A stretch of 64,000 bases of DNA from Cylindrotheca closterium (lineage: Eukaryota > Bacillariophyta > Bacillariophyceae > Bacillariales > Bacillariaceae), in NCBI GenBank assembly GCA_933822405.4, contig CAKOGP040002358.1, positions 2,339 to 66,338 of the forward strand, given 5' to 3'. Shown here one piece after another: positions 250 through 54,268 of this stretch. Each line of letters starts with the position of its first letter. Position 1 is the stretch's first letter. The notes beneath the pieces are model-generated. The model saw only the letters and a list, made by a program, of their open reading frames with translations. It ran no database searches and was not told the origin of the DNA. A program made the position numbers and the translations under genes.

Positions 250-1110
250 TTTAAAAAGTAGAAAAAAATCTATCGCTAGCACCGCTTGATATCCAAATTA
301 AAATGTGAGGCTGGCTTTTGGCTGGTTGTTGTGTTTGATGTGAGGTGGTACTTGATTGATGGCCTAGTGACTGGAATTTTCGATTACTTTCCCCAATCTC
401 CGTTCTGTTGTATAAAAGTATTCGTAAAACCATCAATTCTTGCCCAAATGTAGAGCGAAAACGATCGCTAGCAGCCCCTAATATAGTAGTTGAGATCCTT
501 GGTTGATTGTTGTCTTTGATTTGACGTTGTTCTTGAAAGATGCCCATGTGACTGGAATTTCTGATCATTTTTCCCAATCTCCGTTCTGTTGTATAGAAGT
601 ATTTGTAAAACCATCAATTCTTGCCCAGATGCAGAACGAAAACGATCGCTAGCAGCACCATATATAGTAGTTGAAATCCTTGGCTTATTGTTGTCTTCGA
701 TTTGACGTAGTTCTTGATTGATGGCCACATGACTGGAATTTCCGATCATTTTTCCCAATTTACGTTCTGTTGTATAGAAGTATTTGACAAACCATCAGTT
801 CTTGCCCGAATGTAGAACCAAATCGATCGTTAGCGCCACCAAATATATCTAGTGAAGTCCTTGGCTGGTTGTTGTTTGATTTGATGTCGTTCTTGATTGA
901 TGGCCTTGTGACTTCAATTTCCGATTATTTTCCCAAATCTCTGCTCTGTTGCAAAAAAGTATTCGACAAACCATCAGTTCTTGCCCGAATGTAGAACCAA
1001 ATCGATCGTTAGGACCACCTGATATTGATGTAGGGTTTGCTGGCTGATTGTAGTCAATGATTTCACGTGGATCTTGAGCCACGGCCATGGAACTGAATTT
1101 ACTGGAAGTC
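250..1110. repeat. ~181-bp degenerate tandem repeat, about 4.7 units
   Basis: The segment CATCA(A/G)TTCTTGCCC recurs at 431, 612, 793 and 972, so the spacing is 181, 181 and 179 bp. A partial first unit begins near 250. Each unit also carries a CGATCG(C/T)TAG core and a TTCTGTTGTATA-like stretch. Read on the minus strand, units give similar peptides (around ASDRFRSTFGQELMV and YNRTEIG). Because 181 is not a multiple of three, the reading frame changes from unit to unit. I therefore treat the open frames of about 100 codons as by-products of the repeat rather than genes. The family is not one I recognise. Confidence 0.75.
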
Positions 1111-1575
1111 AAACGATTGTCAAAAAAAGGAATCAGACGATATCTCAATGCGAGAGCCTTTGTCGATTGTAACTTTTAAAACAATTGGGATACTCACATC
1201 TATTTGATTTTCGACTGGGAAAAGACCTCATTGTATGACATGCTTTGTATGGGTAACAAGTGCTCCAGCAAAATATGATGATTGATTGTCATTTTGGTGA
1301 TTTTGGAAACTCGTGGATAGGGTGAAGTGAATGATCCGTCTAGTACTGTACCTAACTCTACAGGATGGTACGGCCAGAGATGATCCGCAAATTGAATGTG
1401 CGGTCGTCCTGCGATTTTATAAAACAGTAAATTTGAAATTGTACGCAGTATTTTAAACGATGCAACAATAATAAGGAATTTAATCTATTGTACTAATACT
1501 AATATTGAGAAGAGCAATATGTAATTAGTTTTCAAATCAAACCTCGCTTTCTCATTCAGTTTATTATACGACGCA

Positions 1576-3487
1576 ATGGTAAAGCGACAGAAGGAAAAGC
1601 AATATCAATCTGGGCGAGAACATAGGCAAAATGCTCAGTTGCGATCTGGATCTGGATTGACTGGCGGTGTTGTTCAGCGTATACTCCCATTTCAGTGTTG
1701 CGCGCTAACACTCGTCCCATACACTCAACCAGTCTGCAATGCCCAAGGAATCTTATTTGATAGTGTCGCTCTGATGGAATTCGTGATGAAACACAAGAAG
1801 GATCCTGTCACTGGAGAACCGCTGACAACTCGGGATGTCGTTTCCCTTCGTATGGATAAGGACGACGAGAATCGATGGCAGTGTCCAGTTTTGACGAAAC
1901 CCTTTGCCGATCATACTAAAATTGTCGCAATCGTTGACCGAACCAGCAGCAAGAACAATAACGTCGAGGCCTATGTATATTCCTTTGAAGCCTACAAGGA
2001 ACTAAATGTCAAGGCAAAAAATTGGTTTGACTTGACGACGGGGAAGAAGTTCTCTCCAAAAAGGGATGTCCTAATTCTCAATGATCCACAAAACGAGGAC
2101 TTTCAGAAGCAGCGTGATATTCGAGGATTTTGGCACATACAGAACTCTCGATCGCTGGATCAAAAAAAGCAACAATTGAACGTACATCACTCTGTCACAG
2201 CAACCCGCATCATGGAAAAGCTCAAACAAGATAAAAAGAAGCGACCGACTCCTGGATCGACGTCCAACGACACGGAACATAATTGTGGCAGCGATCAGCC
2301 ATTGAAAAAACTCAAAATCTACTCCGACGATGTCACCAATGTGCAATACACGTCTGGGAAGGCTTCTGGATCCTTTACAAGTACCGCTATGGATGTTCGA
2401 AATGAAAATACTACACGGGAAGCAACGCAAGAAGAGGTCTTGCAGGCTCAGTTTCAAGTGATGCGAGCGCAGAAGGAAAAGGGATACGTGCGCATGATTA
2501 CGAGCATGGGGGATCTATTATTGGAATTGCATTGTGATATTGCCCCAAGGTTAGTGAATCCTGTACTTGGATTCTATGTATGTGTCGTATCATTTGTTTG
2601 CATACTTGTTTGCATAAGGCTCACAATGTTGCTTGGGGGGTGCTGCTTTGACTCCAACGCATATAGGACGTGTACCAACTTTTTGGGTTTATGCCAAGCC
2701 AAAAAATACGACGGGACTGCTTTCCACCGGTCTATTTCTTCTTTCATGATCCAGGGAGGACAAAGACTCTCTGGGGAAGGAAATAAGGACGACATGAGTC
2801 TTTGGGGTGGGACTTTTGCTGATGAATTTGACGACCGTTTGAAACATGATCAAAGGGGAGTCTTAAGTAGTGCTAACGGTGGTCCCAATACCAATAAGCG
2901 CCAGTTTTTTGTAAGTGCAATGATGTGATGAAAAGAAAGGATTCAAAAATTTGATGATGCTCAATCGATTCTTGTTATTCATTCATCCAAAACGCTCCTT
3001 CATTTTCCAAAAGATTACTTTCAAAGCAACACCGCATTTGGACCGAAAGCATTCTGTCTTTGGCCAAGTTGTAGACGGCAAAAAAGTCTTGAAAGAAATG
3101 GAGAAGGCTGCAACGGACAAGAAGGACAGACCTGTTGATCCAATCAAGATTGTAACAACAGAGGTTCTGGTAGACCCTGCCAAGGAGGCGGAGGACAAGG
3201 AGTTTTCACGCTTGCAAGGATTAAGAGAAGGAAGAATGGAAGCAGAGCGCCAAAAGCAAGCAAGGTCATTGGGCAAGACTGCTTTGCCTTTGGATAGACG
3301 TGGCGGAAGTATTGAGAGCAGAAATAACACTGCAACGATTGGGAAATACTTGTCCCAAACAATGATTCAATCAACAGACGTATCAGCAGACATTGATGTC
3401 ATTATTCCATCAGCACCATCTGCTAGTAAGATGAAAGAGAACAAAGTCAAAACAAATACTCAGTTTGGAAACTTTAGTTCTTGGTGA
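1576..3487 (+). CDS. U-box cyclophilin, PPIL2/CYP60 type (E3 ligase plus peptidyl-prolyl isomerase), 3 exons
   Basis: The exons are 1576-2549, 2667-2910 and 3014-3487, giving 563 aa. Introns of 117 and 103 bp start GTTAGT and GTAAGT and end in TAG and AAG. The first ~200 residues carry the bipartite U-box region of PPIL2 proteins (PFQCCALTL...PVCNAQGILFD, then RWQCPVLTKPFADHTKIVAI). A basic linker follows. The cyclophilin domain is split by both introns: MITSMGDLLLELHCDIAP, then YDGTAFHRSISSFMIQGG and GGPNTNKRQFF, then HLDRKHSVFGQVVDG. The family's architecture and the conserved DRPVDPIKI tail match. PPIL2 proteins are nuclear and associate with the spliceosome; that role is inferred from the family. 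The first intron is a multiple of three without a stop, so an unspliced message stays open through it. Confidence 0.92.
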
Positions 3488-3859
3488 ATCACATGATGGA
3501 ATTTTGGGTGTTGCTGCATGCTAATTGGATGAAATAGGGTGATCATGAGGACAGCATAGGTACTGGATATGACAATTCCCACTATAAAGAAAAGATAAGT
3601 TTTGGCAGCAGTGTCCACCTTTGCAATATTTGACATGGCAGGGCGCAGAAGGCAAACTAAGGCGGGATGCGATGCAGACTTTGTAAATTTAGTTTTATTT
3701 TAGTAGCATTGATGAGAGTTTTTATGCCCGATTCCGTTTGTGTTTGTTTTAGGGCTTCAAGTTGTGTCCTTTTCAACGCCACACCTGTTTCTCACAAACT
3801 ACCCAGTTCCAAGAGATTCCAAAAAGTGACTTTTCATATAAAACAATGTGCCCGCATTC
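3488..3859. other. intergenic, no gene seen
   Basis: This is AT-rich sequence between the 3' ends of the cyclophilin gene and the broken minus-strand gene. Open frames here are short and have no recognisable content. Confidence 0.5.
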
Positions 3860-4530
3860 TCAACCAAGGGTAATGTCTTTTGGTGGCCCATCCCCAGAAC
3901 GATCACCAACTTCCATTTTGGGAAACAGGTAACGATTATTGGGATTCTGCAGCATCATCCGGAAGATTTCATCTCGCCGCTCATCTTCATCCATAAAATC
4001 AAGATTAGAACGAGCAAAGGCCATTCGCTTTTCTTCTTGGATGCTCTCAACTCTGCCAAAAATACTATCCCATGGTGCTCGTGTCAGGAAGGATTCCGGG
4101 AAAGAATCATTTTCACTTGGATCATCCAGAAAATGCTTGATAAGGTATACTAGTACTGCTTCCTAACGTGATGCCTCGAGTTTCATGAGATCCCTGGATT
4201 CTTGCTTAAACCAATAAAAGTGTCAGCGATCATTTTGATCTGTCATAAGGGTTAGAACTCCAGTCTTGTGGTTCAATCTGGACGCAGCACAATGCTGCAG
4301 CACAGCCTGCCTTTGTATTTTGTCATGTTCTTGGTTTTTATCCTTTTTAAGTTCAATACCAATCAAAATACTGTATACTGTGTTTCGCAGTTGAGATGTT
4401 TGGAATGTGGCCGGCAAGAACAACAACGTCAATGTTTCCTTTCATTCTTGGCCCGGGTGAAGGCAGCAAGTCTGTTTCCAAGAGCTCCTTTGCTTTCGAA
4501 GCTTCGAATATATTTTAACTGAGTCCGGAG
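3860..4530 (-). pseudogene. broken minus-strand gene, possibly nuclease-like (unrecognised family)
   Basis: Read from 4432 down to the stop at 3860-3862, a single frame gives protein-like sequence, interrupted by TGA at 4223-4225 and TAG at 4163-4165. It includes IGIELKKDKNQEHDKIQRQA, HKTGVLTLMTDQND, HFYWFKQESRDLMKLEA and PWDSIFGRVESIQEEKR, ending FPKMEVGDRSGDGPPKDI. Further upstream (4433-4530) the similarity-like reading continues in another frame (LLPSPGPRMKGNIDVVVLAGH). I interpret this as a gene disabled by two stops and at least one frameshift. An ExK motif (IELKK) beside a helix-like stretch recalls PD-(D/E)XK nucleases and Crinkler-type C-termini, but that is only a suggestion. It is divergent from the gene at 4835. 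Confidence 0.5.
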
Positions 4531-6177: not shown

Positions 6178-6765
6178 TAATAATAAAATATTATGTATGA
6201 AAATGGATGCAAAGAAAGAAGAATGGGCCAGTTTTCAAGACGATGCAAAGCAAATTCTATTTGATACGTAGAATATTATATAGTCTTAGTCGACGATGCT
6301 GATGATCAATAGCCTGAATAATTGAGGTATTCAGATGATGACGACAACAAACGATTTTGAAGAAAAAACTAGCTGGATGTCGCACAATCGCACGTGTGGC
6401 TTCTTGAGTCCAATCTTTCATTTCTTCTCGAGTTCAACATTGTTGAGTACACTGATTGGTGTACAAATAATAAATGATCATTTAATTGCCGATTTACGCT
6501 AGCTTGTGATACATAGCAAATACTTGGGGGAAGAGCATACCCGGCAGAGTCTCGATGACTCTGGCGTTGATTATCAGAATCCAACATAGATCAGAGTAGC
6601 TGTATAATTGACTTTCATCTCTGGGAGAAACTCCCTAGACCTTCACTACCCATTTTAACGATTCTCCGGGACTTGCATGTTAATTGCGTGGCTAGTCAAA
6701 CCTCTTCTGAGGGTTCTGAGTATTCCTGCCTTCTCGCGCAAATCAATATCCGGGCTGATTAAGTC
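6178..6765. other. intergenic, no gene seen
   Basis: No coding sequence or repeat is recognised between the coiled-coil gene and the Copia remnant. Possible 5' flank of the Copia fragment, but no LTR is identified. Confidence 0.4.
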
Positions 6766-7896
6766 AGTGCAATCTTGTATATTTTGTGTTATGTTGATGA
6801 CATCTTATATTTTGTGTTATGTTGATGACATCTTGTGCATGTCTGAAAACGCTAAAGATGTTATGGAACAGATAAGCTACAAATTCAAGTTCAAGAAGGA
6901 CAAGATTGAACAGCCTGAAAGCTACCTTGGAGCGGGTGTCAAAAGAAAGGTTTTAGACGGTCAGCACATGTGGACTATGTCCAGTTATGACTATGTTACA
7001 GCTGCTGTGAAGAACGTCAAAGCAACCCTGAAAGACAATCAGAGGTGGAACTTACCAAAGAAAGCCGTCACTCCAATGAATAGCGATTATACACCAGAGC
7101 TAGATGTTTCAAGTGAGTTAAACGCACATGACCACACATACTTTCAAGAATTGATTGGGGTCTTAAGGTGGGCCACGGAGATCGGACGCGTTGATATTCT
7201 ACTGGAAGTTTCTCTTTTGAGTCAATACCAGGCAGGGCCAGGGGAAGGACACATGGAACAATTGTTGCGGATTTTTGCCTACTTGGATCAACACCCAAAG
7301 ATGACTCTATACTTTGATTGGAGAATCCCAAACGCAGATTTTTCCGGAGTCAAGTCATCGTACAAGGAGTTCCGTACTCTATACAGAGATGCTGAGGAAC
7401 AATTGCCATCGAACATGCCAAAACCAATGCCTTGCATGCAGCAAACAAGAAGACTCGTAGATCGCATACCGGCTATGCCATCTTCTTGAATAGGGCGCCT
7501 ATTGTTTGGCACAGCCGGAGGCAGAATACAGTGGAGGCCAGCACTTTTGGGGCTGAATTCATTGCTCTGAAATCATGTATTGAAGTAATTACGCAATTAC
7601 GCTACAAGTTGCGTATGTTTGGGATCCCACTGGATGAGGAACCAACACAGGAACCAACACAGGAACCAACACAGGCGTTAGTGGACAATGAAGCGGTTGT
7701 TAAAAACTTGTCACTGGTAGAAACTACGTTGAACAAAAAGGACAATTCAATTGCTTATCATTATGCACGTTGGAATGTGGCAGCTTGGGTGATTGCAGTT
7801 TCATGGATTGATGGTGCAATCAATATTGCAGATGCATTTACAAAGCGATTAACACAGATGAGGAGAGAAAACCTTTTTGGTTCTTGGGTTTATTGA
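6766..7896 (+). pseudogene. Copia retrotransposon 3' remnant: reverse transcriptase thumb and RNase H
   Basis: From about 6806 the frame reads ILCYVDDILCMSENAKDVMEQ, the YVDD active-site motif of Ty1/Copia reverse transcriptase, then FQELIGVLRWATEIGRVDILLEV and LLRIFAYLDQHP. RNase H follows in another frame (7432-7896): NKKTRRSHTGYAIFLNRAP, STFGAEFIALKSCIEVITQLRYK, LVDNEAVV, SWIDGAINIADAFTKRL. The shift near 7430 coincides with loss of the expected short segment between PNMPKP and the RNase H start. A 28-bp tandem duplication (6778-6833) disrupts the frame at the YVDD motif. A 12-bp unit (EPTQ) is triplicated at 7638-7674. Upstream RT, integrase and gag are absent on this strand. It is a dead fragment. 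Confidence 0.88.
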
Positions 7897-8075
7897 GCAA
7901 CCTATGGATCACATTGATCCTTAGCTTGAGGGGACCAAATAAAGGTCACCGTGCTATTAGATACGCACGCATAGTCTGTACGCAGTAACGTACAGAATTG
8001 GTGATGGACCACACACATCATCACAACTTTCTAGATTTCCTTTTACGAACGTCTATCAACTTTCCTTTACTTTTA
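7897..8075. other. possible 3' UTR/LTR remnant of the + strand Copia fragment
   Basis: A G-rich stretch (GCTTGAGGGGACC) follows the RNase H stop, as expected for a polypurine tract, and then AT-rich sequence runs to the end of the opposing element. No second LTR copy is found in the window, so the LTR assignment is unproven. Confidence 0.25.
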
Positions 8076-8609
8076 TCATCCTCCTAGTAAGTCTATCGCT
8101 ACACGACATATTTTACATTCATTGATATCATCAAATTGTCCATGTAGATTGAAATCATGTTCATCTTCATCTTCAGGTTCATAGTCCTGATCAAAGGCTT
8201 CTTCCAAGTAAACTTGTTTGGTGTCATCCACTCCTGCGATTTGATTGCCATCTTGAAATGTCTCCAAATCTCTCTTCTTATCGAAAAACTTTGTGGAAGT
8301 AACACCTTTGGCGGCAGCAGCCCAAGCTTCAACACACTGGATTACTTGGTCGGTAACAGGTAATACGACAACCTTGGGTTGGGAAATCATCTTCTTAGTA
8401 TTGAGGTTGAGCACTCGGTGCCCAGTACATTGTCCCTTTGTAGGTTCAATGTAAATCGCTTCGATACTTTGCGGTTCCATCAAATTGTTGGAATCCGTCC
8501 CAATTGCATGAACATATTGTCCAAGTTCAGCAACCATGTCACTCATGTAGTTGATATTGACATTATCAATGAGTTGCTGCAGACTGAAATGTAATGAGAT
8601 ACTGTCTTT
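8076..8609 (-). pseudogene. Copia integrase-RT spacer, truncated
   Basis: After TAG 8610 the same frame continues with KDSISLHFSLQQLIDNVNIN and MVAELGQYVHAIGTDSNNLM, then HRVLNLNTKKMISQPKVVVL. This is the segment after integrase in Copia polyproteins, where the element's amino-acid sequence usually switches to an acidic linker before RT. Here an acidic linker (DQDYEPEDEDEHDF) is present, and the frame then ends at 8076. Confidence 0.75.
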
Positions 8610-8612
8610 CTA

Positions 8613-9302
8613 GGGAAAGACATTCAATAGCTCGGCGGCTTGACGTCCAAGACATTCAGTGATCACCTTTGGGACCACTCTGTAGGGTAAACGTGCAAGA
8701 GCTACTCTGACTCTTTCTTTCAGCGTCCTATTGTTTCGCTCAGCGGTAGGCTTGTGGTCCCCAGCTGCAGCCGGGTCAATAGTAACACCCATACCCTCTA
8801 GCATATCATCCGTTAGAGGAATGAATGCCCAATCACACTTGATTGTCTTGACTTGAACGCCTGCCTTGTTGTAGCGGCGGAATATCTTATCCAATGCGTC
8901 AAATACAGGGTCAGTCTTCAGGTTCTGCATGTGAATACATGAGCGATAACGCACAGTGCTATCAATGCAGGTGAGAAACTTAGCATTCTCGATCTCCATG
9001 TGATCAATACAGACGGTAATAGATCGATTATGTTGATACAATTCCTCTTGTGGACTGAAGAAGTCATCGTGTGTCTTCTTTGGAGTTGGTCTTGTTGACT
9101 TGCCTTTTAATGTAGATGCCTCAGGTCCAAAGATTGCTTTGGCATGATTGATCGCTTCTCCAGTGATAGGACAGTTCTTGATGAGACCAGATTGGATCGC
9201 ATACTTCAGACTTTTGGTGCTTGGAGCATTGAGTATGTGCATCGCACTTCTTGCTTCCATCGCAGCCTTGACTTGTCTTGGAGTGAATCCTTACTTGTTC
9301 TT
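8613..9302 (-). pseudogene. Copia integrase
   Basis: It lies in the same frame as the protease, after stops at 9303 and 9291: GFTPRQVKAAMEARSAMHIL, then the zinc-binding-like region GLIKNCPITGEAINHAKAIF. Catalytic core: VCIDHMEIENAKFLTCIDST (first Asp), VKTIKCDWAF (second Asp) and PTAERNNRTLKERVRVALAR (Glu). The frame ends GRQAAELLNVFP at TAG 8610-8612. The three acidic residues of the DDE core look present, so the damage is in stops rather than in the core. Confidence 0.85.
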
Positions 9303-9305
9303 TCA

Positions 9306-10462
9306 AACAGTTGCCATCTTGGGGGTCATCCTGAGTCCAGCATATCCATTCTGTTTGTTTGAAGAAAGTTCGAAATTTGGTTGATTATTTAAGTTGCTTA
9401 ACTGGCGACGGTACATTGCACTTGTCTCTTTGGCAGCTGGTTCGACATTTGCTCCAAGTTGCTCCAACACATACACACCCTTACGATTCACAAATTGCAT
9501 CTTTCTGTCTCCATCACAATGCACAATAAAGGCATTGTCAGCATCAGTATCCATAGTAATGCGGTATCCCGCAGCAATCATCTCGCGCATAGCAAGTACA
9601 TTGGCAATTCCATCTTCATTGTGATAAACTGGAGGCGGAAAACCTTCTTCGTCGAGAACTCTGCTGCCCACGTTGGTGTGCAAATCGAGCTCCTTCTCAG
9701 CATGACGGAGTCCATGCATGAGTTCACCATTACAAATGGTGGTGTTGGTACAACCACTGTCCATGATGACATGATTGTACAATCCAAATGGGTCTCTTTC
9801 TCTTCTGCAGCTTTGAATAAACTGCAGACCTAGATCTGCCTCAGTGGGAAGATCAGGCAAATCTTCATCTTCACCAGCATAGTACCAGCCGGCTTGAAGT
9901 TCGACATTTGTCGTACCAGCAGGACATGGAATAAGATAGACATCATTGCCATTCTCATCCTTTCCCTTGATAGCATTGTGGAAGACATTTGACGTATCGT
10001 AATAGCCGGTCTTCACGACCTGCGGAGTTTGAGCTTGAGTTGCATCAAATCCTTGGCGCACTTGAGCAACACTGAAGCCTTGATGGCCAAGTTGCATTCC
10101 ACTGAACGCAATTTCACCATTAGCATTCATTGAGTAAGGGACAGTCAAAGTGCCGCCACCTTGAGTTGGAATCTGCATGAGCTGCATTCCCAAAGGAACT
10201 TGCATCATCTGATTACCTGTAGTACCAGCAAGCCGCAAAGGTGTGTTAACGCTTCCCGCAACGCTCGATGCTCCACTTGTGGATGCAGAAGCTCCAGGAA
10301 CTATAGCTGGAACAGTAGCTGGGAGAGTTGCTCCAATCTGATTCAGATTGAGCTTCTTCCCATAGTCAACATATTCATCAGGATGCTTCCATTGAATCTT
10401 TGGTAGCAGTCTGTCTGGGCATTTTGGAGACATATGGTCTTCGTTGCCACATACATAACATG
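9306..10462 (-). pseudogene. Copia zinc knuckle and aspartic protease
   Basis: The frame opens with the CCHC knuckle CYVCGNEDHMSPKC (CX2CX4HX4C). A Gln/Ala/Val-rich linker follows, then the protease signature VIMDSGCTNTTIC, with Asp in D-S-G as in retroviral-type aspartic proteases. Downstream are ITMDTDADNAFIVHCDGDRK and a G(V)YVLEQLG segment that typically precedes integrase. It ends at TGA 9303-9305, after KMATV. The frame is continuous with the integrase below apart from stops. Confidence 0.85.
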
Positions 10463-11482
10463 CTGCCTCCTTCTTTCCATCCTTTGGTTTATTTTCCCTG
10501 TACCTTTACCTTCATTAGGTTGGTATTTTTCTTGGTACAGGTTCGCTCCCGGATTTTTAATCACATCCATGTGAATCTTCAACATATCTTGTGCTTTGCT
10601 GACCGTCTTTGGATAGTATTCCACTTCCCTGCAATAGTTCGTCTGAAGATCCAGCATTAGAGGAGCTGTTCTTGTTTGATCGCAGTTGCACAGAAATCCT
10701 GTTGCAAGAACGGCATCTTTGAACTTGTCTTGATCAGCAGTATCGGTGCTAGCAATAGCAGCATACGATTTTGTCTTGACCGCAAAATTTCAGAACCAGG
10801 CAACGCCATGTAGATCTTGCAGGACTTCAGCATGTCTCAAGAATTGTTCCTTGAAATGCATCAAGTTTTTGTTTGTTCCTTGCTTCATCGCAAAGCACTT
10901 TTGGTTGGCTTCCCAGAAATCCAAGAAGTCATACTCAGCATCAGCACTCTTCTTCATGAATTGTTCAATATGTTTCAAGAGTTTGATTGGATCTTCAAGA
11001 GTAGTCGTGAAATTGGCTTCACCTTGAAGCTTGATATCCATTGCCTTTGTCACAAACTTCAGCATGACATTTGATTTGACGGTTCTCTTGTTTGTCTCAA
11101 AGTAGGCTGATCTTCTTATGGTCTTGTCAAGCTTTGCAGAATAGAGAATCTTGTTTTGGGCCATCTCTGTTTCTCTTGCAACAGCTTCAGTTTGAGTTGG
11201 AGCGTTCAATCTTGGAGCAATCGCATTGAAGTCAATCGACTTCCCATTGCAAATCGATTTCACCATGTCTTCTGAGCACTTCATTCCCAAAGCTTGGATG
11301 TAGTCGATCACTCTTTCTTTGGCATCTTCGTACAACGATCTTGCCTTTCCATCTTTTTCACCTTTCGTTGAAAATAGATGTTTCACAACTGTTAGACTTG
11401 GATTGCTCTTGACTTTCTGAGGAGTCACAAGTCCTCTTCCACCACCAGATGAAGAACGCCCCATCGTCAACGAATCACTCAC
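10463..11482 (-). pseudogene. Copia gag
   Basis: It starts MSDSLTMGRSSSGGG and continues as a helical, charged protein: HLFSTKGEKDGKARSLYEDA, IDYIQALGMKCSEDMVKSIC, TTLEDPIKLLKHIEQFMKK. An in-frame TGA at 10790-10792 follows GVAWF. The same frame then resumes with NFAVKTKSYAAIASTDTADQ and reaches LQTNYCREVEYYPKTVSKAQ. A frameshift near 10490 leads into the zinc knuckle frame. Gag would package the element RNA into virus-like particles. The identity is inferred from position upstream of the CCHC knuckle and protease. Confidence 0.75.
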
Positions 11483-47919: not shown

Positions 47920-47969
47920 CGACCAGGTAAGAGCGACCCAAATGTTGCCGGCCGGCCATGCGCCTGCCA
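47920..47969 (+). repeat. left terminal inverted repeat
   Basis: Inverted partner of 54219-54268, with 5 mismatches. Contains a GGCCGGCC palindrome, a CG-rich block unlike the surroundings. Confidence 0.9.
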
Positions 47970-48348
47970 ACCATCCGGCTACAGGACAAAAAAGCCAACG
48001 TCATTGGTGATAGACCGGGCTTGCTCTCCTTTAAAAAACATTTCAGCGACAAGACATAAAAAAACATCAACATCAACACGACAACTGGCATTCCTATCAG
48101 GTTGCTCGCAGCATAGCATAGTTGCACAATTGAACCATCTCCTCTTTCCTTCACTAGCCCGTAGCAACGTTACCAAAGTCCTCAGAGACCGTTTCCTCCA
48201 TCAACTTCCGCACATTCCAGCTTTTTACACATCTGTTTCTCATCTTCCATTGCGCGGAGTGACAGGCAGTGTGTAGCTACGAAAGTTTTTTTGTGTTGTG
48301 TCTTGTCCTCGCCTCTAGTAGGTTGGAGACTTGGTGCGGTGAAGTATT

Positions 48349-50715
48349 ATGATGCCAGGATCGTCTACAGGTAGGAAGCGCACTGCTGGAAAGGTTGGAA
48401 GGAAGAAGAAGGCTGATATTAGTTGCATACAAAATGCCACAACCCAAAAGATTGCTTCAAAGGTTGTCACTCGTTCTGTTGCTGCAGCATCTACTGCTAA
48501 GTCCGCAATCACTCAATTGAACAGTCCTTCCAGCAAACAGAAGCCTGCTCCATCCATGACCCGCGTTGAAGAAAAAACGTCAACTGCCCCATCTGATTCA
48601 GAAGCTCCAGCCTCGAGCACCAGGGCTGAACAGAAACAGAATTCTGCTCCATCCATGAAAAACGTTGAAGAAGCAATGGTGTCTGGCCCATCCCATTCTG
48701 AAGCTCCCTTGGCATCAGAAGATCATGTTCATGATGAACAAAAGGTGATTGCATCCCTTCCAACAGAAAAAAGCATTCCACCACCACTCAAAGACAATGA
48801 TCAAGTTGTACCACAACAAGAAGATAATGGTGATGACGGAGAAGATATCAGGCAATCATCACCAGAGGACAACGGCCCGCCTGCACCGCAATTAGAACAT
48901 TATGAGAAAGAAGAAAAGGTGACCACCCCACCAGAAGCGACACCCTCCCAACCATCAGAGAATTGGAGCCTGTCGTTATCTGATGATAGTCTGGAAGAAT
49001 TCTCTGACGAGATTTCCGAGTGGTCTTTTGCGTCCTCTCACCGGACTGCCATTCCTGGTGACGAAGACTATGAAAGCAACAACGAGGAAGCTGCTCTCAG
49101 CCCCGTTACTGAAGCTAGAGACTGCCACACTACTTTCAAACACGGACCCAACATCTCCTTTACCATTCTTGACTTACCATTTGAAATGGCTCAAGGTGAC
49201 GAAATCTATACAAAAAGAAATTGGAGTGTAGGCAGACTTCATGCCAGGGTCCAAGGCTCCAATACACTAAAGAATGTAGATTTCGATGAAGGTATTTCCA
49301 GTGACGAGGTGAACCATCTAGTGTGGAATAGTCAATCGGAAATCAGGCATGTTTTGGGTAAAGGAGAGAAAAGCGGGTGTAGGGACAAGTATCTTGAAAT
49401 ACTTGGTGCTCAAATTGGCTTCTTGAAAAGACAAGGGATCGGTGCCAGAATAGATGCAATGGAAAAAAAAAGGGAAGGGAAGGCAAAAAAGAAAGTTGGT
49501 CCTGGCGATGAAGGAGTTGGTGCACTAGAAACAGAGATGGCAACAAAGAGGGCTCGGAGGAAAGCTGGCCTTGGTGACGAAGACTTGAATGACTATTGGG
49601 ATCCATCAGGTGTAACAAGAAACAGAAAGCCAAACATTGGACTATCTGCGGAACAAGTGCAGTTGAGGGAGCAGCGGATGAAGAGGACCGATCTGAAAGC
49701 TGTTTTTGCAAATGACAAACCTACACATCATACCGAGGTCTTTAGTAACTTACTTTTGCAGTCAGAAAATCTTTTGCAAGCCGCCCGCCAAGACGAGAAT
49801 GAAAGGCGTGTAGCCTCCAGAATGAAAAAGGCTACTGCCCAATACCAAAAAGAACTCAACCGCTGCTACAGGAATGATATTGAAGCCAACAGGTTCATCA
49901 AAAAGTACAAGATCAGCCCCCCAGTTCTCAACAAGTTCCAGGACCATGACGAAATTTCAATGATACGATACGAGCCACCTACCGCTGAGAAAGGAAACAA
50001 AGCGACCTTCACAATCACTTGTGGCCCAAAAAAAGGAATACGCATCCCCAATGTCCGAGTTGAATACCTCGAATATTACCTTGGTCGTGGATTTGTTGAT
50101 AATTGCATCTCATTTGGAGAAAAGTGTGCTACAAACGGTCTAAATCAACCCTCTTTCCATGTACCACTTGGAGACAGCAACTCTGACATTGCGTCTGACA
50201 TCTGTCTTTTCAAGATTGACAAAAACGGTAATGGTGTCAAAGCCTTACCGTTTGTCCAAGGTGCCAGTGATTGTTGCCTTGGGTTTTCACTGGCAAACGC
50301 ATTGCACCATCTCAAGTATCATGCCAAGGCTCATGCCCTGTATGCCTTCTCCCACAATCTTACTGATTACGATGCCACTTCTCAATTCAAAATGTTGTCC
50401 CACTGGGTCCACTGTTCTGTTGGAGCTGTCGAGTGTTTGTCAGTCAAAGCGTCTCGGAAATTTGACGGGCTTAACGGATTTGCCCAATGCATCACACTCC
50501 TAGAAGAACAAGAACTTGTTATTTTTGTACCACAGGCGAGGGATGGGACCAAGACTCATGCTGTAACATTCTGTCATGGATTGATATTTGATGCCACGCA
50601 ACAATACCCCCTGAGGCTATCGGAAGAGTCCCTTAGTTTCATCGCCGGATCTGCAGGTTTTGCAGGCATCTGGCGTGCACGTGTCTTTAGCCTTACCAAG
50701 AACACTCCAAAGTAG
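48349..50715 (+). CDS. transposon gene: 788-aa protein with predicted papain-fold cysteine peptidase C-terminus
   Basis: It starts MMPGSSTGRKRTAGKVGRKK, a basic N-terminus, then ~230 residues of Ser/Pro/Glu-rich disordered sequence with a repeated PSMTRVEEK/PSMKNVEEA...SDSEAP unit. A middle region is charged and helical (RARRKAGLGDEDLNDYWDPS; RMKKATAQYQKELNRCYRND). The C-terminal ~150 residues look like a compact enzyme: ASDCCLGFSLANALHHL (Cys642/Cys643), THAVTFCHG (His737) and LIFDATQQY (Asp748). The order Cys, His, Asp and the spacing fit papain/OTU/C39-type folds rather than Ulp1, where His comes first. I know no transposon gene of this exact build; peptidase activity is a prediction. Confidence 0.75.
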   Translation: MMPGSSTGRKRTAGKVGRKKKADISCIQNATTQKIASKVVTRSVAAASTAKSAITQLNSPSSKQKPAPSMTRVEEKTSTAPSDSEAPASSTRAEQKQNSAPSMKNVEEAMVSGPSHSEAPLASEDHVHDEQKVIASLPTEKSIPPPLKDNDQVVPQQEDNGDDGEDIRQSSPEDNGPPAPQLEHYEKEEKVTTPPEATPSQPSENWSLSLSDDSLEEFSDEISEWSFASSHRTAIPGDEDYESNNEEAALSPVTEARDCHTTFKHGPNISFTILDLPFEMAQGDEIYTKRNWSVGRLHARVQGSNTLKNVDFDEGISSDEVNHLVWNSQSEIRHVLGKGEKSGCRDKYLEILGAQIGFLKRQGIGARIDAMEKKREGKAKKKVGPGDEGVGALETEMATKRARRKAGLGDEDLNDYWDPSGVTRNRKPNIGLSAEQVQLREQRMKRTDLKAVFANDKPTHHTEVFSNLLLQSENLLQAARQDENERRVASRMKKATAQYQKELNRCYRNDIEANRFIKKYKISPPVLNKFQDHDEISMIRYEPPTAEKGNKATFTITCGPKKGIRIPNVRVEYLEYYLGRGFVDNCISFGEKCATNGLNQPSFHVPLGDSNSDIASDICLFKIDKNGNGVKALPFVQGASDCCLGFSLANALHHLKYHAKAHALYAFSHNLTDYDATSQFKMLSHWVHCSVGAVECLSVKASRKFDGLNGFAQCITLLEEQELVIFVPQARDGTKTHAVTFCHGLIFDATQQYPLRLSEESLSFIAGSAGFAGIWRARVFSLTKNTPK

Positions 50716-50740
50716 TAAAGACATTATATGTACTAGTTCA

Positions 50741-53700
50741 TTATCTTCGTCCCTTTCTCTTGATTCTCTTTCGATGGTATGTATCCTGGGTACTCTTCTT
50801 ACAGGTTTCTGTATTCAGTGCAAAAGATACCATGTCCCGTCCGGTTGCCCCAACAAATGCACGTTTCTGGCTCTTCTTCATGGCCAAGGCTTTCCTTTCA
50901 AAGAGCTCTCGATCAATTGCCTCCAGTTTTGACGTAACAAAATTCACGTCATCTCGACTCATGCAATTTCGGTCAATGTCCTTGAATTTTTGGAAATTAT
51001 ATGCTCTTTTTTTTTGACATTGCTCCTTTGGTTGTTGGGAACACAACTGGTTCATGTTGAAGGCTAGTGTAGTAGTTCTGTCGCCCTCTTCATCGTCGCT
51101 CTCTTCATCCTGTGCAAAATCGCTGTTTCCGTAGTCTGAGGGTGAACACGTTTCAACAGTATGGTATGCGTTTGTTTGACTTGGAGATTCGCTAAAGGTT
51201 CCAGTATCAGGATACTCATTCAGCGTGTAATTCCAACAATGTGGGATGGGGCTGAGATATATATCCATCAAGTCTTCAATGGTTGATTTGCAACAACTAG
51301 CTTTTGCAAATATCCGTGGATACATAGTAGTTTGGTCCGGACTCGTAATACTTTTCAACAAGGATTGCGTCTTCACCACTATTCCAAAATGTTCTTTCTT
51401 CTGGAGTTCACCAAAGTTGTGAGTGATTTCCTCATAACCTTGTTTAAAAGCGTAATAAGCATAATCTGAGCGCCAGCGACATGCAAAATCGTTGATGTCA
51501 TAATGGTGCTCCAACGCTATCAAGTGTCTACAGGGGATACCATACTGATGTCCAAACCCACAAGAACAAGTCAGCACTACCCTGGACGTGTCGTTGGTGC
51601 ATGCTTTAACATCCAACTTATGAGCTGTGCGAAACTTTGGTCGTCCCTTCACGCCTGGTGGACAGCGGACTAACGTTGAGGGGGGTCCTGCACGAATAAG
51701 AAAGAACGCTTTTGTCGACAGTTGTACAATGGTGTATTTGTCAAGAGCTTCATCCATTTGTTCAATGATAACAGAAGTGGCAATTGGCACCAACTTTTGA
51801 ATACATTCTGTGTTGTGCACCGTACACTCTGCGGAAACATACAGTGGTGTAGAGTTTGACAGGCGCATTTGGGTATACTCCCTGTCACGATTTTGAATAT
51901 CCATATGCGCTGACATGTTGGAAGCCGAAGTCTTCATATTATTTTGGGGCTGTGCTGCCATAGCACTGTGCTTTGCTGCGTAGTTCATGCCCTCTGTGGC
52001 ATTAGTAGTGTATTCGTGTAAGCATCGAACCTTCTGCTTACAATGGAAGGCAAACTGTTGGTCATCAAGTGTAAGAATGTGATTTAGGATCCATCTAACA
52101 CATTTTTCTGCAGCTTTGTCCCCAACAAAGCGTCTGAGAACTTGGTTTGTTTGGAGCTCTTGTAGCAGTAAAGCCTTAGACAATTCGAACTCCTTCTTGC
52201 TCCGACATGAAGTTCCATCAATCCAGGATCTAACCCACCGCCTCACCTCCAGTAGAATTGCCTGTCCATTAGATGGATTCTTTACCTCGCTATCTTTTGG
52301 TCCGTGTTTTAGGAATGTTTTTTCTATGAGATGATGTCCGCATCTACCGCGAATTGCATTCTTCACATAACGAAAGATGGTCTGATCGACAGCATTGTAC
52401 TCGTTGGAATTTAGGAGCTCCACATTGGAAGAATCTGCTACAGCAATGGTTCTGCCACTACCAAGCTTCAAGGATGCTGCTTTGATAGCCTTGGCTTCAA
52501 TTGCCTCTAGCCTTTCATGAATGAATTCAGTCCGTGTCAATTGGTCGTCAACAGTCAACGTGGATGTGAAGTGACAAAACTGTTGCCGTATCATTGGGGC
52601 TGCAGCGGCTTGAATCACTGTGCGCCTTGCAGCCAGACCACCGCGACCCATTAGCGGCGGACTTACAATAGGTATAACCGCAGGTCTTCTCTTTTCCAAA
52701 TCAAAGTTTGTGTTGCCACTGGCAGCTGCTGCAATTTTGTTTGTTCTGGATTGGCTGAATTGGGACAGTACCTTGGCCCGTTGCTTATATTGTTGTGCAG
52801 AAAGGAAAAGCGATCTGTTCCTATCCCTTGATACCATGGAATTCCCTTCTGCTAGTTTGTCCACGCTTAAGTTGGCAACATTTTTAGCATGTACAATAGA
52901 ATGCACGTCCTCCTGCTGCGGAATTCTTGGGCATGCGGGAATAGATGTAATGCCACAATCAACAGACTTGTTACCAGACTCTTGGCAAGGAACGGTGTTC
53001 ATATACGTCAAGTTTCTCATCACAGCCTTCGTATTTGGAGGTGGATTCGTCTTTGACCTCCTACCCTTTTGATTTCTGATAGTGCTCTGAACCATGTCTT
53101 CATTTGTTGGGGTCAGCTCATAGGATAGGACGGTATAGTGCAGATTGACCTCGGGGTTCCCAGCCTGGGTTCGCAACCATTGTATAAAGTCAGCAGCCGA
53201 AGAGTTTGCTTCATTGGCAGCTTTGGCTTCAATGTATTCCGGTGAGGTTACCACTACTGATCGATGCGCAGACCTAGAGACATAGCCGTGCTTCAACTCA
53301 AGAAGCATCTTCCGAGATTGAGTACCACTAACTGCTGCCTTCTGTTGAGCAATGACGGCTTGTCGAGCTACTTTTGTGAGGTTGTGTGCCTTTATTGGTA
53401 ACTCGGCCGCCGGTTTTGCATGATATCTATGGACTGTGCTTCCAGTACAGGAAACGTAGATGTATGATGGTTCACTTGCCTTTTTGCTCTTGTGAATACG
53501 CAGTCGCAGTCGGCAAGAGCAAAGCTTGTCTCCTGTGGTGTCCTTTGAAGTATGTGTAGCACGGGGTCGCGTTAGGCCATCTGGACGATTCCTTAAGCGA
53601 TCATGGTGGTAGGACTTGTGTCGGTACTGGAGAAGGACCCCCTTTTCATTATATTGCTCTGAGTCTTGTAGTTTTGTCCCATGGTATGGCTTTGATCTAT

Positions 53701-54010
53701 AACAAGCCAACCAGCCTTTTGAGACGTCATATATGAATTCGCTTCCATGCTTGAGACCAATTACTTTCAAATGGTGAAGCAAATCTTTCAGACCTTTTTT
53801 GGTGGGTGGCCATTGCTTTGGATCAAATTTTGCAGCTCTTGTTTCAATGGCGTTGGTGACAAACGAGAACAAATCAGCAGATTCACCATCATAATCTACA
53901 AGACCGTCAAAGGGGAGCTTGGCGCACCATGTTCGTGCTTCAGCAACTTTGATTTGTAGTCCTTCTTCCAATTCTTCCTGGGTGAGATCTGACGCATTTT
54001 CTAAAGACAT
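50741..54010 (-). CDS. transposon gene: Mutator-like protein with SWIM zinc finger, probable transposase
   Basis: 1,089 aa, intronless. The N-terminus has a FAR1/WRKY-GCM-like zinc cluster (GWLACYRSKPYHG, KLCSCRLRLRIHK, STVHRYHAKP). The middle has GRCGHHLIEKTF, which recalls the C..H motif of MULE transposases after their second Asp, then YTTNATEGMNYAAKHSAM, as in the segment before SWIM. The SWIM finger is CSCGFGHQYGIPCRH (C815, C817, C827, H829; CXCX9CXH). An acidic stretch (AQDEESDDEEGD) and a Lys/Arg-rich tail (RKRIKRKGRR, nuclear signal-like) follow. The first part of a MULE DDE core (D.TY..N) is not evident, so catalysis is uncertain. Its promoter would lie next to the right TIR. Confidence 0.8.
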   Translation of the reverse strand: MSLENASDLTQEELEEGLQIKVAEARTWCAKLPFDGLVDYDGESADLFSFVTNAIETRAAKFDPKQWPPTKKGLKDLLHHLKVIGLKHGSEFIYDVSKGWLACYRSKPYHGTKLQDSEQYNEKGVLLQYRHKSYHHDRLRNRPDGLTRPRATHTSKDTTGDKLCSCRLRLRIHKSKKASEPSYIYVSCTGSTVHRYHAKPAAELPIKAHNLTKVARQAVIAQQKAAVSGTQSRKMLLELKHGYVSRSAHRSVVVTSPEYIEAKAANEANSSAADFIQWLRTQAGNPEVNLHYTVLSYELTPTNEDMVQSTIRNQKGRRSKTNPPPNTKAVMRNLTYMNTVPCQESGNKSVDCGITSIPACPRIPQQEDVHSIVHAKNVANLSVDKLAEGNSMVSRDRNRSLFLSAQQYKQRAKVLSQFSQSRTNKIAAAASGNTNFDLEKRRPAVIPIVSPPLMGRGGLAARRTVIQAAAAPMIRQQFCHFTSTLTVDDQLTRTEFIHERLEAIEAKAIKAASLKLGSGRTIAVADSSNVELLNSNEYNAVDQTIFRYVKNAIRGRCGHHLIEKTFLKHGPKDSEVKNPSNGQAILLEVRRWVRSWIDGTSCRSKKEFELSKALLLQELQTNQVLRRFVGDKAAEKCVRWILNHILTLDDQQFAFHCKQKVRCLHEYTTNATEGMNYAAKHSAMAAQPQNNMKTSASNMSAHMDIQNRDREYTQMRLSNSTPLYVSAECTVHNTECIQKLVPIATSVIIEQMDEALDKYTIVQLSTKAFFLIRAGPPSTLVRCPPGVKGRPKFRTAHKLDVKACTNDTSRVVLTCSCGFGHQYGIPCRHLIALEHHYDINDFACRWRSDYAYYAFKQGYEEITHNFGELQKKEHFGIVVKTQSLLKSITSPDQTTMYPRIFAKASCCKSTIEDLMDIYLSPIPHCWNYTLNEYPDTGTFSESPSQTNAYHTVETCSPSDYGNSDFAQDEESDDEEGDRTTTLAFNMNQLCSQQPKEQCQKKRAYNFQKFKDIDRNCMSRDDVNFVTSKLEAIDRELFERKALAMKKSQKRAFVGATGRDMVSFALNTETCKKSTQDTYHRKRIKRKGRR

Positions 54011-54218
54011 TGAAAAGGATGGGGGGGAAGGGGAAGGTAGTGCTACTAGTATGCTTGTTTCACAGGAAATTTATTTCAATTTCACTCCAGTTACTTTGAT
54101 GATTTGCGGAGCGCCAAGTCCGAATTCAATTTTGGCGCCAATGTCTTTTGTCAGTCAAAGAAGTCGGCTAGGAGTCAGACAGACGACTGTCAATCCACTT
54201 GGACCGATCAAACAGTCC

Positions 54219-54268
54219 TGGCAGGCGCGTGGCCGGCCAGCAACATTTGGGTCGCTCTAACAGGGTCG
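54219..54268 (-). repeat. right terminal inverted repeat
   Basis: Inverted partner of 47920-47969. Confidence 0.9.

Follow-up and report, generated by a model that had tools for sequence, protein, structure and literature searches.

Cysteine proteases of the ubiquitin or SUMO type recur in DNA transposons, where the roles proposed for them are to keep transposition proteins from being degraded or to target repair factors, and Ulp1-bearing VANC-type genes have been linked to hypomethylation of related elements (PMC2836005, PMC9741609, PMC13317346, PMC6446971). Ulp1 and OTU proteases have already been published in Mutator, Ginger or Helitron elements (PMC6446971, PMC13317346, PMC2836005, PMC9741609). 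Examples include Kaonashi and Ulp1-carrying Mutator elements, Mutator-like elements (MULEs) with a long-kept cysteine-protease domain (PMC13317346, PMC2836005), MuDR-6_HM, a MULE with a papain-fold protease of the OTU type (PMC6446971, Table 1), and Helitrons with VTD or OTU deubiquitinases, which are likewise papain-fold proteases and there occur with a helicase (PMC9741609). Here, we describe a two-gene unit in a stretch of 64,000 nucleotides from the diatom Cylindrotheca closterium (contig CAKOGP040002358.1, positions 2,339 to 66,338; hereafter the window, C556:2339-66338 in our numbering of the 572 contigs of the 47.6-Mb assembly). Its best explanation, to which we assign a probability of about 0.72, is that it is a defective copy of a C. 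closterium two-gene MULE family, in which open reading frame (ORF) 2 encodes a SWIM-type transposase and ORF1 a companion protein with a predicted papain-like protease domain. The closest group by description is MULE-Diatoms (group 37), which in Table 1 of PMC6446971 shares with our unit the SWIM-type MULE transposase, the diatom host and the entry 'No TSD' (TSD, target-site duplication). That group is entered there as having a single ORF without further motifs and repeats of 123-124 bp, in contrast to the two ORFs and 50-76-bp repeats found here; the comparison is one of descriptions.

Evidence for a two-gene family comes from the recurrence of the gene pair. In the window the two genes are convergent and lie 25 bp apart. 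Matches to ORF1 were found on at least 22 contigs (19 with the window protein and three more with the C433 protein) and matches to ORF2 on at least 23, these counts being lower bounds; the ORF2 search scored 42 of 60 candidates. Both genes are present on 13 of the 22 ORF1 contigs (C556, C206, C406, C189, C230, C433, C13, C537, C360, C114, C17, C562 and C377), and on all 13 they are arranged tail-to-tail with less than 200 bp between them, down to a transposase identity of 37%; several of these loci are deletion derivatives. The pairing of ORF1 with a SWIM gene is recurrent and not due to chance. A preliminary description, based on the window alone, had named as its refutation that the two genes never occur together elsewhere, and had expected multiple copies carrying both genes as well as 8-11-bp target duplications; the copies were found, the duplications (see below) were not.

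The 50-bp inverted repeats reported in that description were confirmed (Table 1), and their length fits the 14-500 bp of the MULE set in PMC6446971. Genome-wide, 12 exact matches were found to a 19-base core of this repeat, where a random 19-mer would be expected ~0.0003 times in 47.6 Mb with both strands counted; with up to three mismatches the core has 17+15 matches versus 2+3 for a reversed control. When the exact copies are aligned, similarity ends at about the same base (CGACCC...) and the flanks outside are unrelated. A second two-ended copy, C206 6347-12323, matches the window unit in four long aligned pieces at 97.7-99.5% identity and contains parts of both genes; a third (C406, 96-98% identity) is cut by the contig end, and C13 and C562 are derivatives having one end in common. 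On its right side C13 reaches an assembly gap, and the far end of C562 was not found within the piece examined. Related genes are also carried by the two-ended elements C433 (76-bp repeats, 93%), C537 (71 bp), C17 (67 bp) and C377 (54 bp). Could the unit be a juxtaposition, by chance or assembly, of a small repeat-bounded element and two unrelated genes? The absence of a target duplication and the shortness of several related contigs, with C344, C375 and C406 ending inside the element, would suit such an origin, but it is barely credible and already refuted by the other copies: C206 holds a nearly identical unit between the same repeats and C406 a nearly identical partial one, the deletion derivatives C13 and C562 share the end of the unit, and C433, C189, C230, C360, C114 and C17 have the convergent pair at lower identity. 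Two further observations concern the repeats and copies. By eye, three repeat families that differ in other respects (window, C377 and C433) each show a CCGGC motif ~28 bp from the terminus; their alignment scores do not exceed those obtained with unrelated sequence. In C406 (9502-10781), a 1.3-kb insertion with 23-bp inverted repeats at its borders, rich in CTGTAGATGATCGTGAA-type repeats, interrupts the ORF1 copy.

ORF2 has the SWIM finger of MULE transposases, as first described, but the claim of a complete transposon with two long intact genes does not hold. A block of 185 codons, present in the near-identical C206 copy, is missing in frame from ORF2 in the window. The corresponding stretch reads F(I/M)D(T/A)THKTN...LTDGD in C206, C433, C537, C230 and C17, and we take its aspartates, by comparison with MULEs, to be the first two catalytic Asp residues; the presumed site of the third (Glu) is retained. 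The MULE DDE domain (PF10551) is matched by the C433 protein at an expect value (E) of 7.6e-15 and has 10 matches in the genome, including C230 and C206 (C206:10158-10460), none of which lies on the window contig, and it is absent from the window ORF2 protein in Pfam. The window copy is a deletion derivative, which has lost the cutting core of the transposase and kept ORF1 whole. As two of the three presumed catalytic acids are deleted, it would be mobile at most via the transposase of a relative. Zisupton/KDZ, an alternative candidate home for a SWIM protein with a protease, was dropped because PF10551 matches the transposase of the family. Related transposase sequences also occur in other settings. 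On C113, three successive open frames of 335, 298 and 296 amino acids (L056:551-1558, 3341-4237 and 8184-9074) retain only the N-terminal zinc-cluster part of a MULE transposase (51-52% identical), have ratios of nonsynonymous to synonymous substitution rates (dN/dS) of 0.29-0.45 among them and are possibly domesticated transposase-derived genes. Another SWIM-MULE lineage, ~51% identical at the N-terminal part, is found at C80:29335-32570 and C450:447-5521; this part lies opposite to the remainder in C80 and on both strands around it in C450, and searches with the window and C433 proteins gave no ORF1 match on either contig.

ORF1 consists of a long, variable front part and a C-terminal region of 250 residues that is conserved across all lineages. 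In an alignment of 13 rows (leaving out P0006 and P0007, which end before the active-site stretch), the presumed nucleophile Cys643 is present in 11 of 11 covering rows, Gln637 in 10 of 11 (Lys in C189), and His737 and Asp748 in 10 of 10 each; the C245 row is cut by a stop shortly ahead of the His, beyond which the DNA continues in frame with HAV and FDS. These four residues are nearly invariant down to P0009 (876 amino acids, profile match probability 96, E 2.7e-9), which is 26% identical and in which an OTU-like DGNC motif was seen by eye besides the ORF1-like domain. A closer relative, P0003 (455 amino acids), is 60% identical to the window ORF1 over 254 residues, and neither protein matches a C. 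closterium contig. Homologue searches returned four proteins with the ORF1 C-terminal region (three from C. closterium) and eight with profile A3 (seven from C. closterium); the search with A1 found nothing, probably because most A1 words came from the variable front part, and none of 53 pattern matches among viral contigs is a relative. The ORF1 domain is under purifying selection, with a dN/dS of 0.10-0.29 in 23 of 28 pairs among eight copies, ratios that are rough because many synonymous values exceed 1. Host-gene capture by MULEs is known (PMC6446971, introduction), and together with the long, variable front part this allows for ORF1 being a recently captured host gene fragment (Pack-MULE style), a passenger with no role in transposition. 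This is quite improbable, given that ORF1 relatives occur in several lineages at 34-73% identity between lineages, have a SWIM or helicase gene as their neighbour on 17 of the 22 contigs and are constrained in their conserved domain; no single-copy host source was recognised among the ORF1 matches, to which this search was confined.

The suggestion that ORF1 has a peptidase-like end gains support from modelling. An AlphaFold model of the domain, with a predicted local distance difference test score (pLDDT) of 83.6, has a papain-like fold, and its structural matches, of which AvrPphB is the best, include AvrPphB/YopT-like, C39 and Josephin papain-fold proteases among the best. Both the predicted fold and the residue order Gln, Cys, His, Asp agree with papain-like (clan CA) enzymes. 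ORF1 has no Pfam match, the relatives scanned have only sub-threshold matches to unrelated families, and a sequence-only search of the PDB gave no match. BFVD likewise yielded none at E<=0.001. A fold alone, here a predicted one, shows no function, and ORF1 might have a papain-like fold without being a protease, serving as an accessory protein comparable to MURB or VANC, with a structural role or the ability to bind DNA. We consider this unlikely, since Cys (11/11), His and Asp (10/10) and Gln (10/11) are kept down to 26% identity, as an active enzyme would need. A papain-like cysteine-protease domain remains our preferred reading of the ORF1 end.

Compared with the known transposon-borne proteases, this domain appears to be separate. 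Ulp1 has the catalytic order His-Asp-Cys. The order Cys-His-Asp first noted for ORF1, unlike that of Ulp1, was upheld, with the conserved Cys coming first, and neither ORF1 nor the relatives scanned have a Pfam match to Ulp1 (C48); the host lineage also differs from that of Kaonashi and Ulp1 elements. No Pfam match to OTU was found for ORF1 either, which excludes little at such divergence. VTD enzymes have an Asp-x-His motif (PMC9741609), whereas His737 of ORF1 has no Asp two residues before it and is followed by Asp748 in the conventional order. PMC9741609 also points to YopT/AvrPphB-like proteases as structural relatives; the structural likeness of the ORF1 domain to AvrPphB/YopT-like, C39 and Josephin proteases is at 6-15% identity, and sequence searches found no sequence-level relationship to them. 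The preliminary description was right that a MULE is paired here with a cysteine-protease-like protein of non-Ulp1 order, but its 'new kind' of system was too strong a term, as Ulp1 and OTU proteases in transposons are published. The apparent novelty lies in the protease family itself, in the lineage that hosts it and in its occurrence next to a helicase gene elsewhere in the genome; no title or abstract opening among the literature matches listed describes an ORF1-type protease in a diatom MULE.

Several observations weigh against a two-gene MULE with a protease companion. None of the copies read has both genes whole, including C206 (two stops in the DDE stretch, and without 333 bp of the window's ORF2 and ~600 bp of ORF1) and C433 (ORF2 broken by a stop). 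The partners also occur apart: 9 of the 22 ORF1 contigs have no ORF2 match, four of them having a helicase match and five (C453, C237, C267, C435 and C35, with partial matches) neither partner, and ORF1 is without a match on 10 of the 23 ORF2 contigs. The other five dN/dS pairs comprise four near-identical ones at 0.36-0.57 and a saturated one without a value. Foldseek found no PDB match for the ORF1 model at E<=0.001 (best 0.049), and an earlier model, which covered a longer piece, was of low quality (pLDDT 52.9), its matches being left unused. Finally, direct repeats of 6-12 bp were sought at the ends of six two-ended copies, and there was no clear 8-11-bp target duplication: no direct repeat abuts both ends in the window, C206, C537 or C17, a 9-bp pair in C433 is doubtful (one mismatch, 4 bp off on one side, within a palindrome), and C377 lies within a tandem array and decides nothing. 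The absence may be a property of the diatom MULE lineage, because Table 1 of PMC6446971 lists the diatom group without target duplication; the MULE assignment here therefore rests on the transposase domain. An empty site was also sought, and each 500-bp flank of the window unit occurs once in the assembly.

On four other contigs (C245, C273, C201 and C327), the neighbour of the ORF1 relative is a PIF1-like helicase gene and not a SWIM transposase; among the matches listed in the ORF2 and PF10551 searches, there is none to a MULE on these contigs. At C245 the ORF1 relative is convergent with two consecutive helicase frames, the first matching PF05970 at E 1.2e-16 and the second weakly, below the cut-off (best E 4.3e-4), which we infer to be one broken gene. 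The second frame has seven genome matches on five contigs (C245, C327, C273, C158 and C201), four of which carry ORF1. ORF1 and helicase are tail-to-tail at C245, C273 and C201 (a match of just 29 residues in C201), and C327 is rearranged. A Helitron type was rejected for these loci: the single genome match to PF14214 is on C151, and no further helicase or Rep frame was seen by eye in the 1.5 kb upstream of the C245 helicase frame. Inverted repeats do not stand out there either; a targeted test scored 11.0, against an average of 11.35 for shuffled sequence. The ORF1 tree places C201, C327 and C273 together with the window and C360 at moderate support (81/87), with C245 distant; the best tree requires two partner changes, and its strongly supported branches alone are compatible with one. 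Among the MULE copies, the C189 transposase is 70% identical to that of the window and 34% to that of C433 (over ~260 C-terminal residues), whereas its ORF1 domain is 56% identical to that of the window and 65% to that of C433, and the C230 nonsynonymous distances agree in direction with this discord. Given this disagreement between the histories of ORF1 and the transposase, the companion gene appears to have been exchanged between elements, and swapping of genes among element lineages explains these sequence comparisons most simply. A wider proposal, which we hold tentatively and at somewhat less than even odds, is that ORF1 represents an undescribed family of transposon-borne papain-like proteases, a mobile partner that within one diatom genome is swapped among MULE lineages and also lies tail-to-tail with a PIF1-like helicase gene belonging to another kind of element, one protease thus being shared by unrelated transposons, presumably as a deubiquitinase-like helper. 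Separately, a helicase-like frame (DEAD, E 0.02, below the cut-off) was observed close behind a truncated ORF1 copy on C360 (L011:3229-3798).

In the proposed mechanism, the N-terminal zinc cluster of ORF2 presumably binds the terminal repeats and the RNase-H-like DDE core, after which the SWIM finger lies, presumably cuts. An intact copy would supply the MULE transposase that acts on the repeats, and ORF1 would assist in trans. By analogy, ORF1 is probably an active protease working in the nucleus, and its most likely substrate, judging from what has been proposed for the Ulp1, OTU and VTD proteases of other transposons, would be a ubiquitin or ubiquitin-like tag on the transposase or on host proteins of silencing or repair; the chief alternative is that ORF1 processes itself. 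Ubiquitin-kind cysteine proteases (Ulp1, OTU and VTD) have been acquired repeatedly by transposons, and a further, apparently separate protease family in diatom MULEs, maintained by selection and seemingly passed between elements, speaks for a general function of such enzymes in transposition. The diatom MULE and ORF1 together form a compact system for testing the role of a protease in transposition, and the ORF1 loci linked to a helicase gene are the finding that was expected least and that most deserves to be followed up.

Table 1. Features of the two-gene unit in the window, with the helicase-linked ORF1 locus on C245 for comparison.
Feature	Position	Strand	Length	Basis
MULE unit	47920-54268		6.35 kb	two convergent open frames inside inverted repeats
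Left terminal inverted repeat	47920..47969	+	50 bp	45/50 identity with right arm; outer edge is the base where copies lose similarity
ORF1, variable low-complexity front and conserved C-terminal papain-like domain (predicted)	48349..50715	+	788 aa	open frame; relatives; no Pfam match
Modelled ORF1 region (aa 533-788)	49945..50712	+		AlphaFold model, of which residues 83-256 are covered by the papain-like matches
Gln637 (presumed oxyanion Gln) to Cys643 (presumed nucleophile)	50257..50277	+		conservation; roles inferred
His737 and Asp748, presumed rest of triad	50557..50592	+		conservation
ORF2, SWIM-type MULE transposase, front of DDE core deleted	50741..54010	-	1089 aa	open frame; Pfam; comparison with C206 and C433
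SWIM zinc finger (aa 814-837)	51500..51571	-		PF04434, E 2.7e-6
TTNATEGMN, presumed third catalytic site (Glu), retained	51983..52009	-		sequence; largely conserved in C433
Junction of in-frame internal deletion	52401..52402	-	555 bp (185 codons) deleted	2-bp overlap at junction; comparison with C206
N-terminal Cys/His cluster (CSC...C...HRYH), presumed DNA-binding zinc cluster	53420..53521	-		sequence; no Pfam match
Right terminal inverted repeat	54219..54268	-	50 bp	45/50 identity with left arm; edge from between-copy comparison
C245 ORF1/helicase locus	L048:2-694(+), 915-1631(+), 2020-3273(-)			ORF1 relative convergent with two consecutive PIF1-like helicase frames

Elsewhere in the window, frames at 6677-11482 resemble, by eye, pieces of a Copia-type retrotransposon, three of them having no Pfam match at E<=0.001. 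The surroundings of the unit itself comprise a frame with helicase-associated (HA) domains upstream and, ~330 bp downstream, a cytochrome P450 frame.

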